Source: a virus
Length of the DNA stretch: 26,327 bases
Virus record (IMG/VR): IMGVR_UViG_3300028361_000109
Span: 1 to 26,327 of that record
Reading direction: 5' to 3' (one strand)
Below the pieces are notes generated by a model. That model ran no database searches and was not told the DNA's origin. It saw only the letters and a program-made list of their open reading frames with translations. Numbering within the stretch: the first letter of the stretch is position 1; every line of letters starts with the position of its first letter. Both the position numbers and the translations under genes were made by a program. Of this stretch, positions 5,890-19,321 are shown one piece after another.

Positions 5890-6405
5890 ATGGCTGTAGC
5901 CTCAATAGATAAAATTCAAGTTGTTGGCAACGTTGCTTACATCCCATTAACTCAAGGGAAGAAGGCAATAATCGACCTAGATGACGTTCCGATTGTAAGC
6001 GGATTCTCATGGTGGATAAACGCCCACAAGAAAAGCACCTACGCAATAAGAAGTGTCAGAATTTCACCAAATGTATGGTCAACGATTTATATGCATAGGC
6101 TTATTATGAACGCGCCAGATAACCTTCAGGTAGACCACATATCTGGTGACGGCCTCGACAACCGCAGATCCAACATGCGGCTTGTTACGATAGCCCAAAA
6201 TAGGCGCAACCAGAGAATTAACAGCAGGAATTCAAGCGGGTTTAAGGGTGTCAGTTTTCATGCGCAATCGGGGAAGTGGCGCGCCACGATAGGGCATTTG
6301 GGTACCATGCGGCATATCGGTCTTTTTGAGTGCCCAGTTGATGCACACATTGCCTATTGCAAAGAGTCAAAGCGGCTGCACGGGGAATATGGAAGGCGGT
6401 GGTAA
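5890..6405 (+). CDS. HNH homing endonuclease with AP2 DNA-binding domain
   Basis: This 171-residue protein has an HNH_3-type nuclease core: MHRLIM (His69), then VDHISGDGLDNRRSNMRLV (Asp82, His83, Asn91, Asn95). An AP2-like DNA-binding domain follows from about residue 116 (SGFKGVSFHAQSGKWRATI through HGEYG). AAAGGA lies before the ATG. It is the only plus-strand gene between the lysis cassette and the tail genes and is visibly richer in A+T than its neighbours, both signs of insertion. Its stop codon ends at 6405, exactly where similarity to a holin gene on the other strand begins, so it looks like a free-standing homing gene that landed in a holin. Confidence 0.9.
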   Translation: MAVASIDKIQVVGNVAYIPLTQGKKAIIDLDDVPIVSGFSWWINAHKKSTYAIRSVRISPNVWSTIYMHRLIMNAPDNLQVDHISGDGLDNRRSNMRLVTIAQNRRNQRINSRNSSGFKGVSFHAQSGKWRATIGHLGTMRHIGLFECPVDAHIAYCKESKRLHGEYGRRW

Positions 6406-7480: not shown

Positions 7481-7800
7481 GTTAAGTCCTCTATAATGTC
7501 GATCCGCTCATAAGAGTTGTTCGGGAACGTCTCAACAGCGCCGTTCAAGAATGACACCTCAACTTCGCACCAATATGGACCAGATGTATCAGTATCATCA
7601 GACACCCAATCATAGCGCACAAGCCCGTTTGCGGCATCAATGATCGACGCCGGTGCATCAACTTTTGCTACCGATGAGCCAAGCCGCGACATATGAAACC
7701 TAGCAGACGCATCTGATATATCGACGGCATTGCCCTGCCCGTCCTCGCATTTCATTAGTATGGAAGGGGACGTATCCCCGCGCTTAATATCAAATGCCAT
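7477..7800 (-). CDS. BppU-like baseplate/fibre N-terminal domain protein
   Basis: This 107-residue protein starts MAFDIKRGDTSPSILMKCED, contains SARFHMSRLGS and DAANGLVRYDWVSDDTDTSG, and ends with GAVETFPNNSYERIDIIEDL. This matches the beta-sandwich domain at the N-terminus of lactococcal-phage upper baseplate proteins (BppU), also found as stand-alone proteins in proteobacterial phages. It probably links receptor-binding structures to the tail. Its start shares one base with the stop of the repeat-protein gene (TAATG), so the two are likely made together. Confidence 0.75.
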   Translation of the reverse strand: MAFDIKRGDTSPSILMKCEDGQGNAVDISDASARFHMSRLGSSVAKVDAPASIIDAANGLVRYDWVSDDTDTSGPYWCEVEVSFLNGAVETFPNNSYERIDIIEDLT

Positions 7801-8963
7801 TATGCTACCTCATTATTAGAGCGCAGTATTTGCAGCGCGTTACTTTGTGGGGTGATGATTGTGAGGGCGTTGCCGCCTGACAGGATAGAAACCGCTCTGC
7901 GTGATGCCGGGACCGCGAATATAGGAGCATGGCCTTGCAGCGCCACGGCACCTGCGCCGAAGGGTATGACAACGCCCGCAGATGTTGATGGGTTTACGCC
8001 TTGCAGTGATACACTGCCGACACCCGCCGCAGGAGACGCGCCCGCAGATGCAATCGGCGCACGTCCCTGAACGGTAGCCGCGCCAGTACCCACGTTCGAG
8101 ACAACCGGAGATGTTGCCGCAACCTGCTCACCCTGCAAATCCACATCGCCGCTGCCGGGTTGCACATCAGCGCCAGCCGCAATAGCAGGCTCTGCACCCT
8201 GCACAGTTGCTGATCCTGCGCCGATCTGCGCGAGTGCGGCAGCCGTTGCCGCAATACCCTCCCCTGTGACGGAGACTTCTCCCGGCCCCAAGTCCGCCGC
8301 GCTCGATCCCCCTGCAATCGGCGGCAACCCTGAAACTGCCACGCTGCCCGCGCCGAGCGTTATAATGACACTGATGGACGGCGATGGCGCGTGGCCCTGT
8401 GCCGTTACCGCACCCGCGCCCGGCTCTACAGACACGCCACCATCAACTACAGCAGCGGGCCGCCGTCCTTGCAAATTGACTGCACCAGTGCCGATTGCCG
8501 CGTTGATATTTGCGGAGACAGTTGGAGTCATCCCTTGCAGGCTTGTGCCGCCCACGCCTAGATCAGCCTGACCGATGGCGGTGGCGAGTGGCGCATCCCC
8601 ATCAAGCGTGACCGAACCATTGCCGATGTTTGCCGACGCTTTGCCTGCAATCGTTGGCGCTTGACCTTGCAGGCTTGTGCCGCCCACGCCGATGGCTACA
8701 TTCACGCCCGCCGATGGCGAAGGCGCTGCACCTTGCAGATTTACCGTGCCAAGACCTACGGCAGCCGTAGAACTGCCTGATACAGTCAGAGCCTCGCCCT
8801 GCAAACTGACGGAGCCAGTGCCTGCGCTCGAAAGGGCCGCCGCAGATGCGGAAACCTGATGCCCCGTAAGAGACGCAGATCCCGCGCCGAGATCAACCGA
8901 AGCGGCTACCGACCTTGTTAGGCTGGCGAGAGGCGTAGAACCTAGCGGAGCAAAGCCGGGCAT
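7800..8963 (-). CDS. Tail protein made of fifteen 22-residue repeats
   Basis: This 387-residue protein has a 25-residue leader, then fifteen tandem repeats and a 30-residue C-terminal cap (ILSGGNALTIITPQSNALQI). The repeat consensus is GxGxVxLQGxxPxxxAxxxxxx. Fourteen repeats are exactly 22 residues and one (the seventh) is 24. Each unit would give two or three short beta-strands, suiting a beta-solenoid or trimeric fibrous shaft. It is very rich in Gly, Ala, Ser and Val, with no Cys and almost no aromatic residues. Its position between the fibre genes and a BppU-like gene suggests a tail-fibre shaft or virion decoration. No named family is recognised, and repeat number may vary among relatives. 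Confidence 0.75.
   Translation of the reverse strand: MPGFAPLGSTPLASLTRSVAASVDLGAGSASLTGHQVSASAAALSSAGTGSVSLQGEALTVSGSSTAAVGLGTVNLQGAAPSPSAGVNVAIGVGGTSLQGQAPTIAGKASANIGNGSVTLDGDAPLATAIGQADLGVGGTSLQGMTPTVSANINAAIGTGAVNLQGRRPAAVVDGGVSVEPGAGAVTAQGHAPSPSISVIITLGAGSVAVSGLPPIAGGSSAADLGPGEVSVTGEGIAATAAALAQIGAGSATVQGAEPAIAAGADVQPGSGDVDLQGEQVAATSPVVSNVGTGAATVQGRAPIASAGASPAAGVGSVSLQGVNPSTSAGVVIPFGAGAVALQGHAPIFAVPASRRAVSILSGGNALTIITPQSNALQILRSNNEVA
8533..8690 (-). repeat. 66-nt-periodic coding repeat with exact 26-bp copies
   Basis: An identical 26-bp word occurs at 8533-8558 and 8665-8690, 132 bp apart, which is two 66-nt repeat units. Both copies encode GVGGTSLQG. This shows that repeats 4 and 6 of the 22-residue array share recent ancestry at the DNA level, while the other units have diverged. 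Confidence 0.7.
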
Positions 8964-15135: not shown

Positions 15136-15747
15136 CTACCTCAACGTTTGGACAAATGAGAATTGTTTGCCGCTCGATATGGCTGGCCCATGCGAACCAA
15201 AATCAGGGTTTGGCAACAACACCGCCTTCATAACAGGCTTGTTGAATGTCACTGTCGCACTGGTCGTCGCCCCCGAAGGCACAAAAGGGCTGACCTCTAA
15301 AGTGCTGCCGGAAATCGTCACGATCCGGTGCAGGCTGTAGCGCGTGGGGTTGCTGCCATATGTGAAACTCAGCAGATCACCTGGGGCCAGCGTCGGCCCT
15401 CCTGATATAGTCATCAATCTTCGATCTGATGGGTTCAAACTGGTGATGGTTGCCGTTCCTGTCCCGCCGCTTGCAGGGTTTGGCTTGCTTGGGTCATAGA
15501 CGAGGAAGCTGGAACCGGCACGGTCAAGTGCAGACAACAGCGCATCCAACGCTGCGGATGTGGCCCTGACGTTCGTAGGAGGCACGGAGAACGAACCGCG
15601 CCAAACCGCGTCACCTAACGATGCGGAGTTTTGCGACCCGCCTGCCGTTCGGTCTATTTGCCGTGGGTTGTTGATATAGAATTCAGACATTGAAACATTG
15701 AACTGGTCCTGAAATGCAGCAAGCGGGATCGGATATGTGAGCGGCAT
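15136..15747 (-). CDS. Distal tail-type protein (GTA gp12 position)
   Basis: This 203-residue protein is the first gene after the tape measure. The region ASLGDAVWRGSFSVPPTN and LDALLSALDRAGSSFLVYDP, then APGDLLSFTYGS, reads as beta-sandwich modules typical of distal tail or minor tail proteins that ring the tube end. The start overlaps the tape-measure stop as TGATG. The name is positional; the sequence alone would support only 'phage tail protein'. Confidence 0.7.
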   Translation of the reverse strand: MPLTYPIPLAAFQDQFNVSMSEFYINNPRQIDRTAGGSQNSASLGDAVWRGSFSVPPTNVRATSAALDALLSALDRAGSSFLVYDPSKPNPASGGTGTATITSLNPSDRRLMTISGGPTLAPGDLLSFTYGSNPTRYSLHRIVTISGSTLEVSPFVPSGATTSATVTFNKPVMKAVLLPNPDFGSHGPAISSGKQFSFVQTLR

Positions 15748-17840
15748 CAGCCAATCCTCCTTGGGTCTTTGGATATGCGGTCAACGCTTTTTGGGAGGGT
15801 ATTGCGGTCATACCCGCTGATTCCCTCAGAAGTGATCTGGACGGCGATGCCTTGGATTTCGCCGCGCTGTTGAACACTGAAGCCTTCGGGCGCGATGATC
15901 TGCAAAGTTGCGCCGCCGCCGACCCCTGTCTGCACCCCCAGCTTACCGTTCTTGCCGCGTGACAGTGGCATGATTGCTTCTGGCCCTGCCTCGCCCATCA
16001 ATCCTGTCTGGCTTCCCTTCATGGGGAACAGTGTAGGCCCATTGACGATTCCGCCATTGGCAAAAGCCGTGACCGCAGAACCGCCTGAGAACACGTTGCC
16101 TTTGGCGCTGCCGAAAAGACCACCGAATAAATTGCCAACAAATCCGCCCAAACCGCCGCCGCCGCCGCCAGATCCGCCCCAAAGGGCATCAAACGCGCTG
16201 TCCAGTAGCTTGTCGGCGATTGTGTTGAGTACATTTCCGACAACTTCGCCGAAACTCTTTGCGCCCGTTATCAATCCTTTGAATGCGTCCCGAAATGTAT
16301 CCTTCATTTCGTTGGCGGTTTCTTTGAGGCTCTCGACCTTGTCTTTTAGCCCGTCAACAGCGCCGCCCGCGCCACCGCCTGTTCCTGCACCGCCGTTACC
16401 TAAATTATTTAGTGATAACGCCAGCCTTTCCGCCTCGTCAGCCGCGTCACCTGTCTCGTCCTTAATCCCAGACATCCCGGCTTTTAGTTCGGCCAAAGCT
16501 GCGTTTGTAGCCGTTGCCCCTTTCATTGTGTCAGACGCATTTTTCAGGCTTGAAGATGCTGCAACAGAAAACTCGTCAGCAGCGGCGCGTATACCAGCCG
16601 CCGCCTTGCCGCCCATGCCCTTAAACATGGCGCCTATGTCGATGCCAATAGCTTCCAGTATCGGGCTGGCAAAAAGGAAGTCAGCGATCATATCACCAAA
16701 CTTATCGCTGATCGTGGCAAACCCGTTAAGGAATGCCGCAACCATTTTGTTGACTATGCCCTTTATCGAAAAGAGAAGAGCCAACGCAAGAATGTCCATG
16801 TCAGCAAAAACGGCAGATGCAACATTTCGCAGAAGCCCCAGAGCCTCGCCAAACCCGCCCGCCCCTTTGACTAAATCCCCAAACTTCGCAACCAAGAAGC
16901 CAGCGCCTACAATCAGCGCACCGAACCCGGTCTTTATGATGGCCGCGCGCAAAAGCACAAACGCGCCTGTGAGAAGAGATGTTGCGCCCAGAGATACGGC
17001 CATAGCAGCGACCAGCTTAATGCCAAGGAAAGCCACCAGTACGCCGACCGATGCCGCCAGCGTGTCGATGTTGCCGACAAGCCCGTCGATCATCGTTCGC
17101 AGTAGGCCACCTTCACGCAGGCTGTCCGTCATTACCTGAGCAAGCGCACCCATAGTCGGGACCAATGCAATCGCAAGCTGTTGTGCAGCATACTGACCTA
17201 TCAAGCCAAGCCGACCGATACGGTCATTCGCCTGCTCGATTGCAGCGCTGTCAACCTTGCTGACCGCCAGACCATAGTCCTCTGCGTCTTTGCGGGCCTG
17301 CCGGAAAGCTTCTCCGCCGCCAAGCACGGCCAGAACCATTTCACGGTTTCGAACGCCAAGTCCCTGCAACACGACAGACGCTTGCCCCGCATCAAGCCCC
17401 AGCTTCTGAATCTGATCAGCAATCAGCGCAATCTTTTGGTCTGCCTCAAGACCGGCAAGGTCGCCCGCCGATATTCCTAGCTTCTTTAGTGACTCCGCCG
17501 CGCCCTTGCTTCCCTTAGCAATCTCGCGGTCCATCGTCTGTACATCATTGGTCAGCGATGAAAGGCTTACACCGGCCTCGCCAGCGGCCAACTCAAGCGC
17601 ACGAAATCCACCGATAGAGGTCCCCAGCCGCCGTGATGCCTTTGCCGCCCTATCAATATCATTTGCGCCCTTGATCGCAAATGCCGATATGGCGGTGCCT
17701 AAAGCAAGGGCGACCGCAGAAGCAGCGACAAACTGGGCCTTCATAGCCTTGAGGGGCGATTGAACGCGCCGCGCGCCGCTTTCGAAATTGGCCGAATCCA
17801 AGCCCAAATTAACGCGGAGACTGCCGATCACACTGGACAT
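15747..17840 (-). CDS. Tape measure protein
   Basis: This 697-residue protein sets tail length. It starts with SSVIGSLRVNLGLDSANFES and a helical N-terminus. Several hydrophobic stretches follow (TLAASVGVLVAFLGIKLVAA; IIKTGFGALIVGAGFLVA), then a coiled coil (KDKVESLKETANEMKDTF) and a Gly-rich region. The end carries GLMGEAGPEAIMPLSRGKNG, a motif found at the C-terminus of many tape measures. By the usual rule of about 0.15 nm per residue the tail would be near 100 nm. AAGGAG precedes the ATG, just after the stop of the frameshifted chaperone. Confidence 0.9.
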   Translation of the reverse strand: MSSVIGSLRVNLGLDSANFESGARRVQSPLKAMKAQFVAASAVALALGTAISAFAIKGANDIDRAAKASRRLGTSIGGFRALELAAGEAGVSLSSLTNDVQTMDREIAKGSKGAAESLKKLGISAGDLAGLEADQKIALIADQIQKLGLDAGQASVVLQGLGVRNREMVLAVLGGGEAFRQARKDAEDYGLAVSKVDSAAIEQANDRIGRLGLIGQYAAQQLAIALVPTMGALAQVMTDSLREGGLLRTMIDGLVGNIDTLAASVGVLVAFLGIKLVAAMAVSLGATSLLTGAFVLLRAAIIKTGFGALIVGAGFLVAKFGDLVKGAGGFGEALGLLRNVASAVFADMDILALALLFSIKGIVNKMVAAFLNGFATISDKFGDMIADFLFASPILEAIGIDIGAMFKGMGGKAAAGIRAAADEFSVAASSSLKNASDTMKGATATNAALAELKAGMSGIKDETGDAADEAERLALSLNNLGNGGAGTGGGAGGAVDGLKDKVESLKETANEMKDTFRDAFKGLITGAKSFGEVVGNVLNTIADKLLDSAFDALWGGSGGGGGGLGGFVGNLFGGLFGSAKGNVFSGGSAVTAFANGGIVNGPTLFPMKGSQTGLMGEAGPEAIMPLSRGKNGKLGVQTGVGGGATLQIIAPEGFSVQQRGEIQGIAVQITSEGISGYDRNTLPKSVDRISKDPRRIG

Positions 17841-17842
17841 AT

Positions 17843-18154
17843 TTAGTGGCTCCTTGCCAGTGCGCGGTCGATCTTATCCCATGCAGTGATGCACTCGATA
17901 ATCTCGGCCCGCTTGTCTACTTTCGCGCCGACAAATTCTTTTAGTGTCGGTGGCTTTTCAAGTCGGCCCATCATTGATGTGTACCAAACCTCGGCGCGGC
18001 GCTCTTGCATACGCAGCGCCGCGCCTTCTAACTCCAGCGCAAACAGGCGCGGCGTAATATCCCAAAACCGCGCCGGATCGAAACCCGCCGCGATGTAGCT
18101 TTTCAGAAGGTCCGCAATATCTAAGCCGCTGCCTTCTTCGGGCGGCTCTTGACG
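17843..18154 (-). CDS. Tail assembly chaperone, frameshift extension (T part)
   Basis: This 103-codon frame is joined to the preceding gene by a -1 ribosomal frameshift at 18154-18160, giving a 209-residue fusion (17843-18471) analogous to lambda gpGT. The frame reads RQEPPEEGSGLDIADLL, then AAGFDPARFWDITPRLFALE and MGRLEKPPTLKEF, clearly coding and typical of second-half tail chaperones. It has no ATG until midway (RMQERRAE), no ribosome-binding site, and starts inside the upstream gene. It would bind the tape measure while the G-like part recruits tail tube subunits. The alternative, separate translation from a weak codon, seems less likely. Confidence 0.8.
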   Translation of the reverse strand, partial: RQEPPEEGSGLDIADLLKSYIAAGFDPARFWDITPRLFALELEGAALRMQERRAEVWYTSMMGRLEKPPTLKEFVGAKVDKRAEIIECITAWDKIDRALARSH

Positions 18155-18471
18155 TTTCCCGATAATGGCTTTGCGTCTGGGAAGCTGGCCTGCATCAACT
18201 GTGGCAGCGCCTCAGCATTTTCCGCGATAATGTCATCAGCAGTCCAGCGGTCCGCATCAGGGTGAAACCGCTGCAATGCGCCTAGAAACAAGTCCGTCAC
18301 GATGCTAAGATCAGGCACCCAAGCGTCTCCAGCGCCAGTCGGTGCCTCAAGTTGTCCGAGAACGTCCTGCCCATGCTTTGCTTGCAGATCCGCCAAAACG
18401 CTCATGCCGACAAACAGCGTATATTCATCGCCGTTCGCCTGCACCTTCATGCTGCCGCGAATATCGCTCAT
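18121..18471 (-). CDS. Tail assembly chaperone (G part)
   Basis: This 116-residue protein starts MSDIRGSMKVQANGDEYTLF and carries a small beta domain, then helices (SVLADLQAKHGQDVLGQLE and DLSIVTDLFLGALQRFHPD). This resembles GTA-type tail assembly chaperones. The last residues are basic (KSRPKKAAA), and the frame ends at 18121. Ribosomes that slip at codons 105-106 instead make the longer fusion. It sits between tail tube and tape measure, where siphophages place this pair, and overlaps the tube gene's stop as ATGA. Confidence 0.85.
   Translation of the reverse strand: MSDIRGSMKVQANGDEYTLFVGMSVLADLQAKHGQDVLGQLEAPTGAGDAWVPDLSIVTDLFLGALQRFHPDADRWTADDIIAENAEALPQLMQASFPDAKPLSGNVKSRPKKAAA
18124..18160 (-). 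promoter_or_regulatory. -1 programmed frameshift signal (GGGAAAC plus hairpin)
   Basis: On the minus strand, G-GGA-AAC (18160 to 18154) sits in the correct phase of the G-part frame for a X-XXY-YYZ slip to GGG-AAA. After a 6-nt spacer comes a hairpin: AGCCGC (18147-18142) pairs with GCGGCT (18129-18124), extended by CC/GG around a GAAGAA loop with a small bulge. The zero-frame stop follows immediately at 18121. Lambda uses the near-identical GGGAAAG in the same gene. Confidence 0.85.
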
Positions 18472-18938
18472 GCGATTGTCCGCTCGTCAGTGTCTTGGCG
18501 GTCGAGGATCTTGATTGCCAAAGTTGCCATAGACTTCTCGCCAACCGTTCCGGTCGGGATAAAGCTGTTCACATAGCCGCGATAAGTGCGCCGCGCTGCC
18601 GTGCCTGCCGGGTCTATGTTGAACTCGAACAGCACATCTTCCTTTTCGCCAGATGCTGTCAGGGCGGCCAGCGTTTCCAGAAGAATGTCGCCCGGATCTT
18701 CGGACCAGAGCTGCTTGTCCTGCGACCAATCAGCAACAGGCAGAAGGCCGGGGATAGTCTCCCGCGTGCGGCCCGGTGACTGCATGTGCGTCACGTCAAT
18801 ATCTTCGGGAACCTGATCTGGAAACGGCAGGTTTTCAAACCCAAAAATCTGCGTGAATGTTGTAGTCTCGGCCACAGTGCGACCGATCCAAAGTTCCCAA
18901 TCGTAGGCAACATTGCCCGCAAATGCTTTTTGTGCCAT
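18468..18938 (-). CDS. Major tail tube protein
   Basis: This 156-residue protein starts MAQKAFAGNVAYDWELW. The start at 18938 is preferred over ATG 18953 because GGAGG lies about 9 nt upstream and it overlaps the preceding stop (TAATG). The body is beta-rich with ENLPFPDQVPEDIDVTHM, SPGRTRETIPGLLP and FEFNIDPAGTAARRTY. The 'DVTHMQSPGRTRE' turn is typical of siphovirus tube proteins of the lambda gpV/GTA type. Its position before the chaperone and tape measure fits. It polymerises into the hollow tail. Confidence 0.85.
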   Translation of the reverse strand: MAQKAFAGNVAYDWELWIGRTVAETTTFTQIFGFENLPFPDQVPEDIDVTHMQSPGRTRETIPGLLPVADWSQDKQLWSEDPGDILLETLAALTASGEKEDVLFEFNIDPAGTAARRTYRGYVNSFIPTGTVGEKSMATLAIKILDRQDTDERTIA

Positions 18939-19321
18939 TAAATCGGCCTCCATGTGATGTTAAAGTCTAGCCCTGTCCGATATGGACGTTCGGCCTCGTT
19001 GGTGCCGCCCTCCCGCGTGTCGCGGCTGGACGTGTGGTTGATGAAAAGAAACCCGCCGCCGCGATAGGCGTGCAAAGCGGCGATTACAGCCTTGCCAGCG
19101 CCTTTTGCTGCCCCGTAGGTCATGCCGTAGCAATCGACCTGTACACGGCCCTCATATGGGCCTGTGCCGTTCATGTGCAGCCCTTCAAAGCCTGATGCCA
19201 ACGTCAGGACAATCGCAGGGAGTGGCGTGCCTTGCGGGTGCGTTCCCCATTCGACACGCTGGCCTACCTGTGCGGTGATAGCTGTGTTCGCGCGCATCAT
19301 GGCACGTAGTTCTTGCTCCAT
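18938..19321 (-). CDS. Tail completion protein (DUF3168 / gp17-like)
   Basis: This 127-residue protein has LRAMMRANTAITAQVGQRVEW, then THPQGTPLPAIVLTLAS and GRVQVDCYGMTYGAAKGAGK. This is the DUF3168 pattern (small alpha/beta protein that caps the tail at the head-tail joint, SPP1 gp17-like). It lies in the expected order between the HK97 gp10-like gene and the tube. It ends with its stop shared with the tube's start codon. Confidence 0.85.
   Translation of the reverse strand: MEQELRAMMRANTAITAQVGQRVEWGTHPQGTPLPAIVLTLASGFEGLHMNGTGPYEGRVQVDCYGMTYGAAKGAGKAVIAALHAYRGGGFLFINHTSSRDTREGGTNEAERPYRTGLDFNITWRPI

Follow-up and report, generated by a model that had tools for sequence, protein, structure and literature searches.

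Evidence for a probable lambda G/GT-like −1 frameshift in a viral tail assembly chaperone gene

The tail assembly chaperone gene on the viral DNA stretch analyzed here (IMG/VR record IMGVR_UViG_3300028361_000109; 26,327 nt, hereafter the window) is very probably decoded with a programmed −1 shift of the ribosome, as in phage lambda G/GT. This reading is favored because a slippery heptamer and its phase are conserved among relatives, because the extension encoded in the −1 frame (B) is under selection upstream of any start codon, and because the TAC families matched by the relatives as well as the gene order point the same way. The same evidence supports the lambda-like arrangement previously proposed from the letters of the window (the sequence-only reading).

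In the proposed mechanism, most ribosomes would finish the zero-frame gene (A), yielding a protein of 116 aa, and a minority would shift by −1 at G GGA AAC and read on in the new frame, giving a 209-aa A-B fusion; a hairpin starting 6 nt downstream of the heptamer may help the slip. If the parallel with lambda G/GT holds, the tape measure protein would then be coated by A in many copies and A-B in a few, with the major tail protein being recruited through the B domain.

Gene order and reading frames at the locus

A module of phage structural genes lies on the minus strand of the window and encodes terminase, portal, protease, capsid, head-tail genes, major tail protein, A, the −1 frame and tape measure. 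The source is a siphophage or prophage, and among its named relatives the hosts are mostly Rhodobacteraceae (Paracoccus and related bacteria). Gene A, the putative lambda G-like chaperone, occupies 18121–18471 (minus strand, 116 codons), with an ATG at 18471 and a TAG at 18123–18121. It is preceded by a gene for a 161-aa major tail protein (18468–18953, minus strand; phrog_158 major tail protein, E 1e-5) and followed, after B, by a gene for a 697-aa tape measure protein (15747–17840, minus strand; phrog_8462 tail length tape measure protein, E 1e-40). The order is thus major tail protein-A-B-tape measure, with two overlapping frames between the flanking tail genes and the second of them in −1. 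The −1 frame is absent from the list of open reading frames, and was found to be open from 18211 to 17843, in agreement with the earlier claim that it adds 103 codons reaching 17843. The putative lambda T-like extension B itself comprises 103 codons after the slip and a TAA stop (17843–18157, minus strand), so that a slip at the heptamer would join 106 residues of A to 103 of B.

Two further features of the window were recorded. An HNH endonuclease (phrog_99, PF13392) is encoded at 5890–6405 on the opposite (plus) strand, adjoining the lysis genes, and is probably a homing endonuclease insertion. A 387-aa protein encoded at 7800–8963 (minus strand) contains about a dozen diverged repeats of the GxGxVxLQGxxP type and gave no Pfam or PHROG match; the repeats appear to be old, as there is no tandem repeat in the corresponding DNA.

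Slip site and downstream hairpin

The heptamer GGGAAAC is located at 18154–18160 on the minus strand and starts at the last base of a TCG codon, so that codons 104–106 read TCG GGA AAC. GGA is codon 105 and AAC codon 106, which is the −1 phase and the position that the sequence-only reading had assigned to the heptamer. The motif alone proves nothing, since GGGAAA[C/G] is about as frequent in the window as chance predicts (6 observed vs 5.7 expected); its weight comes from its phase, its location in the gene overlap and its conservation among relatives.

Relatives were gathered from phage records, genome contigs and viral contigs, giving 79 loci (window included) that were reduced to 43 non-redundant ones. 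In all of them (43/43) the B frame is −1 relative to A, and 38 of the 43 contain an in-phase GGGAAAC or GGGAAAG (once AAAAAAG) within the overlap, bearing out the expectation that the heptamer would be conserved. When any XXXAAAN or XXXTTTN heptamer was counted, 39/43 relatives were positive, compared to 4.7 expected from shuffling synonymous codons within each gene, and heptamers in phase outnumbered those out of phase by 42 to 4. The glycine codon at the slip site is GGA in all 39 cases (39/39), whereas GGA accounts for 46 of the 537 glycine codons elsewhere in A of the relatives. At none of the loci does the heptamer precede the opening of the B frame; in one relative (L013) the two coincide, with the frame opening exactly at the first heptamer base. 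The distance from the A stop to the B motif G[LF]DPARFW is likewise exactly 38 nt in nearly all relatives.

These comparisons bear on two other accounts of the overlap. The chance frequency of GGGAAA[C/G] in the window would fit a coincidental heptamer in a single gene that has decayed or been mis-sequenced; such an origin would have to account for a shared −1 overlap at 43 non-redundant loci in which the spacing of A stop and B motif hardly varies and B is under purifying selection (see below), and judging from the relatives it is already refuted, its probability being close to nil. Slippage of the RNA polymerase instead of the ribosome would also change the frame, though nothing specific speaks for it here. 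Transcriptional slippage needs longer homopolymers, and the runs at the site are only GGG and AAA; the phase-locked, two-codon form of the motif fits tandem tRNA slippage, and we regard a transcriptional origin as scarcely credible. A ribosomal frameshift at the heptamer remains the reading adopted here.

Not all relatives share the motif. In a few distant ones (L005, i.e. Rivra; L060/L061; L062–L071; L079/L080) the −1 overlap of A and B is present, and no XXXYYYZ heptamer was found in the overlap; a convincing start for B is missing there as well. As these relatives have the same architecture, B is probably produced by additional routes across the wider family, by means of either a different slip motif or a different start mode. 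A more distant copy of the A/B pair was also observed in a second prophage of the Paracoccus sulfuroxidans genome (L092), whose A carries an in-phase GGGAAAC 27 nt ahead of its stop.

Downstream of the heptamer, a 6-nt spacer (GTCAAG) leads into a probable stimulatory hairpin at 18124–18147 (minus strand), AGCCGCCC-GAAGAA-GG(CA)GCGGCT, in which AGCCGC CC pairs with GG(CA)GCGGCT. The stem ends directly at the 5' side of the zero-frame TAG (18123–18121), and both the spacer length and the end of the hairpin just before the stop were thus as previously described. In a single-sequence fold of 61 nt the window hairpin was not significant (z = −0.92), the segment downstream of the heptamer in the window gave a fold z of −1.9, and the segment following the heptamer in 36 relatives folded somewhat better than shuffles (mean z −0.92). 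An Rfam search of the window matched no family.

Among relatives with an inner GCCG/CGGC stem, the outer pair is A-T in 6, G-C in 15 (including L022, with the stem GGCCG/CGGCC, counted by hand) and C-G in 1, with 0 mismatches. All four independent changes between A-T and G-C were compensated (4/4; sign test p 0.125, which is the minimum possible for four pairs). The outer pair was scored by script rather than from the MAFFT alignment, in which the 3' arm was misplaced due to its variable distance. In several other relatives the stem is of another kind, in part extending past the A stop, or is missing altogether. Downstream RNA structure is often, though not always, a part of lambda G/GT-type frameshifts. 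Given the modest z across relatives and the compensated outer pair on the one hand, and the different stems of other relatives on the other, the hairpin is considered probable, and it is better backed by the relatives than by the window sequence alone.

Extension B and the families of both domains

The second half had been described as having no start codon of its own, and this was found to hold: the first ATG, GTG or TTG in the −1 frame is an ATG at 18010, at about residue 50 of the extension and deep inside the domain. In the predicted structure of B this residue falls in the middle of the longest helix (36–63). For the stretch that runs from the A stop to the first likely start codon, pairwise comparison of 19 relatives gave a pN/pS of 0.29 in the B frame vs 1.7–1.8 in the other two frames. 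The part of B that precedes any start codon is thus under purifying selection, and in the B frame only.

The main competing explanation is that A and B are separate proteins, B being translated from its own, perhaps non-ATG, start and coupled to translation of A as in gene transfer agents (GTAs), where g10.1 has a start at the g10 stop in 10/10 genomes of the same hosts and no in-phase heptamer was found in the nine g10 frames that were placed. A CTG is indeed present at 18106 in the window, and GenBank annotators have treated B in this manner: in the five deposited relatives examined (L001–L005, corresponding to Shpa, Pthi1, Psul1, Pben1 and Rivra) it is annotated as a separate hypothetical gene, with starts placed at CTG, at GTG or at a truncated or internal ATG. 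Against this, the window and its close relatives have no ATG, GTG or TTG near the A stop, save for an occasional TTG within a conserved Leu-Leu, and three relatives (L025, L031 and L033) contain no ATG, GTG, TTG or even CTG within the interval used for pN/pS. A CTG start was consequently ruled out as a general mechanism for B. The heptamer is moreover kept in phase, with a rare glycine codon, and separate initiation of B in these phages appears highly improbable. The annotated starts are themselves improbable, and the gene model of B in the deposited relatives examined is corrected accordingly.

The protein family matches of the relatives agree with a chaperone pair, while at the Pfam level those of the window's own A and B are weak or missing and count against it. 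In the window, A was assigned to the tail protein family phrog_2115 (E 6e-7) and B to phrog_19318 (E 4e-17), whose function is listed as unknown and for which a likely function is thereby gained. Window A did not match the PF11836 (Phage_TAC_11 / GTA-gp10) profile, which was matched by A of 21/38 relatives (best 1.3e-9). Window B gave an E-value of 0.077 against PF09550 (Phage_TAC_6, GTA gp10.1), its 13.9 bits being below the cut-off of 23.4 bits; this family was matched at E up to 0.1 by B of 18/39 relatives (best 2.5e-7), and the B proteins of the prophage copies L091 and L092 scored above the cut-off.

The structure model of A (pLDDT 88) is folded to about residue 97 and continues as an unstructured, low-confidence linker containing the slip site, so that the site would lie in a sensible linker between two predicted domains. 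The best viral fold match of the A model was a protein named tail assembly chaperone (E 4e-4), and searches of solved structures with the A and B models returned nothing significant.

Gene transfer agents and known frameshifts

The GTA loci in the host genomes (L081–L090) carry a homologous pair, g10/g10.1, with PF09550 E-values of 1e-17 to 1e-25. As in the phages, both protein families (PF11836/PF09550) are present in the same order in these Rhodobacterales GTAs, and B lies in the −1 frame in 8/9 loci with an upstream gene that could be located. Unlike in the phage pair, in every one of the ten genomes g10.1 has a start codon of its own that overlaps or abuts the g10 stop, mostly as ATGA or GTGA; in one case (L083) it begins slightly ahead of that stop. 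Across the nine loci for which the g10 frame was placed by script (L081 was unplaced), g10 yielded no in-phase heptamer. The pattern that the sequence-only reading had named as speaking against a frameshift, a well-started second half in homologues that lack the slippery site, does therefore exist in the distant GTAs; among the close phages the number of cases is 0.

The GTAs are a distant, domesticated branch with another mode of expressing the same two domains. We consider it reasonably likely that a single conserved pair of chaperone domains is expressed in two ways, the phages fusing them by a frameshift and the GTAs initiating each protein separately. If so, the domesticated tail gave up, or never had, an A-B fusion that free phages have kept under strong selection, and the contrast between phages and GTAs constitutes a natural test of the need for the fusion in tail assembly.

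In lambda, G (the short form) covers the tape measure and GT (the long form) brings in the tail tube protein, at a ratio of about 30:1 (PMC5009743). The present pair differs from lambda in that its heptamer ends in C where that of lambda ends in G, in that the hairpin sits between the slip site and the zero-frame stop, and in its Pfam families, TAC_11/TAC_6. The same heptamer has been reported in the tail chaperone genes of HCTV-1 (PMC5009743) and of Burkholderia phage KL1 (PMC3483164), and one study ascribes such a frameshift to most of a set of Rhodobacter capsulatus phages (PMC8601537). In the Caulobacter phages Colossus and phiCbK, the tail chaperone frameshifts use GGGAAAC and AAAAAAC, respectively (PMC3556154); these are alphaproteobacterial phages with the frameshift at the same gene position, and with the same heptamer in Colossus, but they belong to a different phage group. 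The Paracoccus phages Shpa, Pthi1, Psul1 and Pben1 carry a homologous A/B pair with an in-phase heptamer (AAAAAAG, GGGAAAC, GGGAAAG and GGGAAAG, respectively), although the pair is annotated as two separate genes. The literature searched contained no description of a frameshift for the present A/B family. Both the mechanism and the heptamer are already known in the tail-chaperone role, and the A/B family is a well-supported addition, contributing a well-conserved frameshift family, mostly of the GGGAAAC type, in alphaproteobacterial phages.
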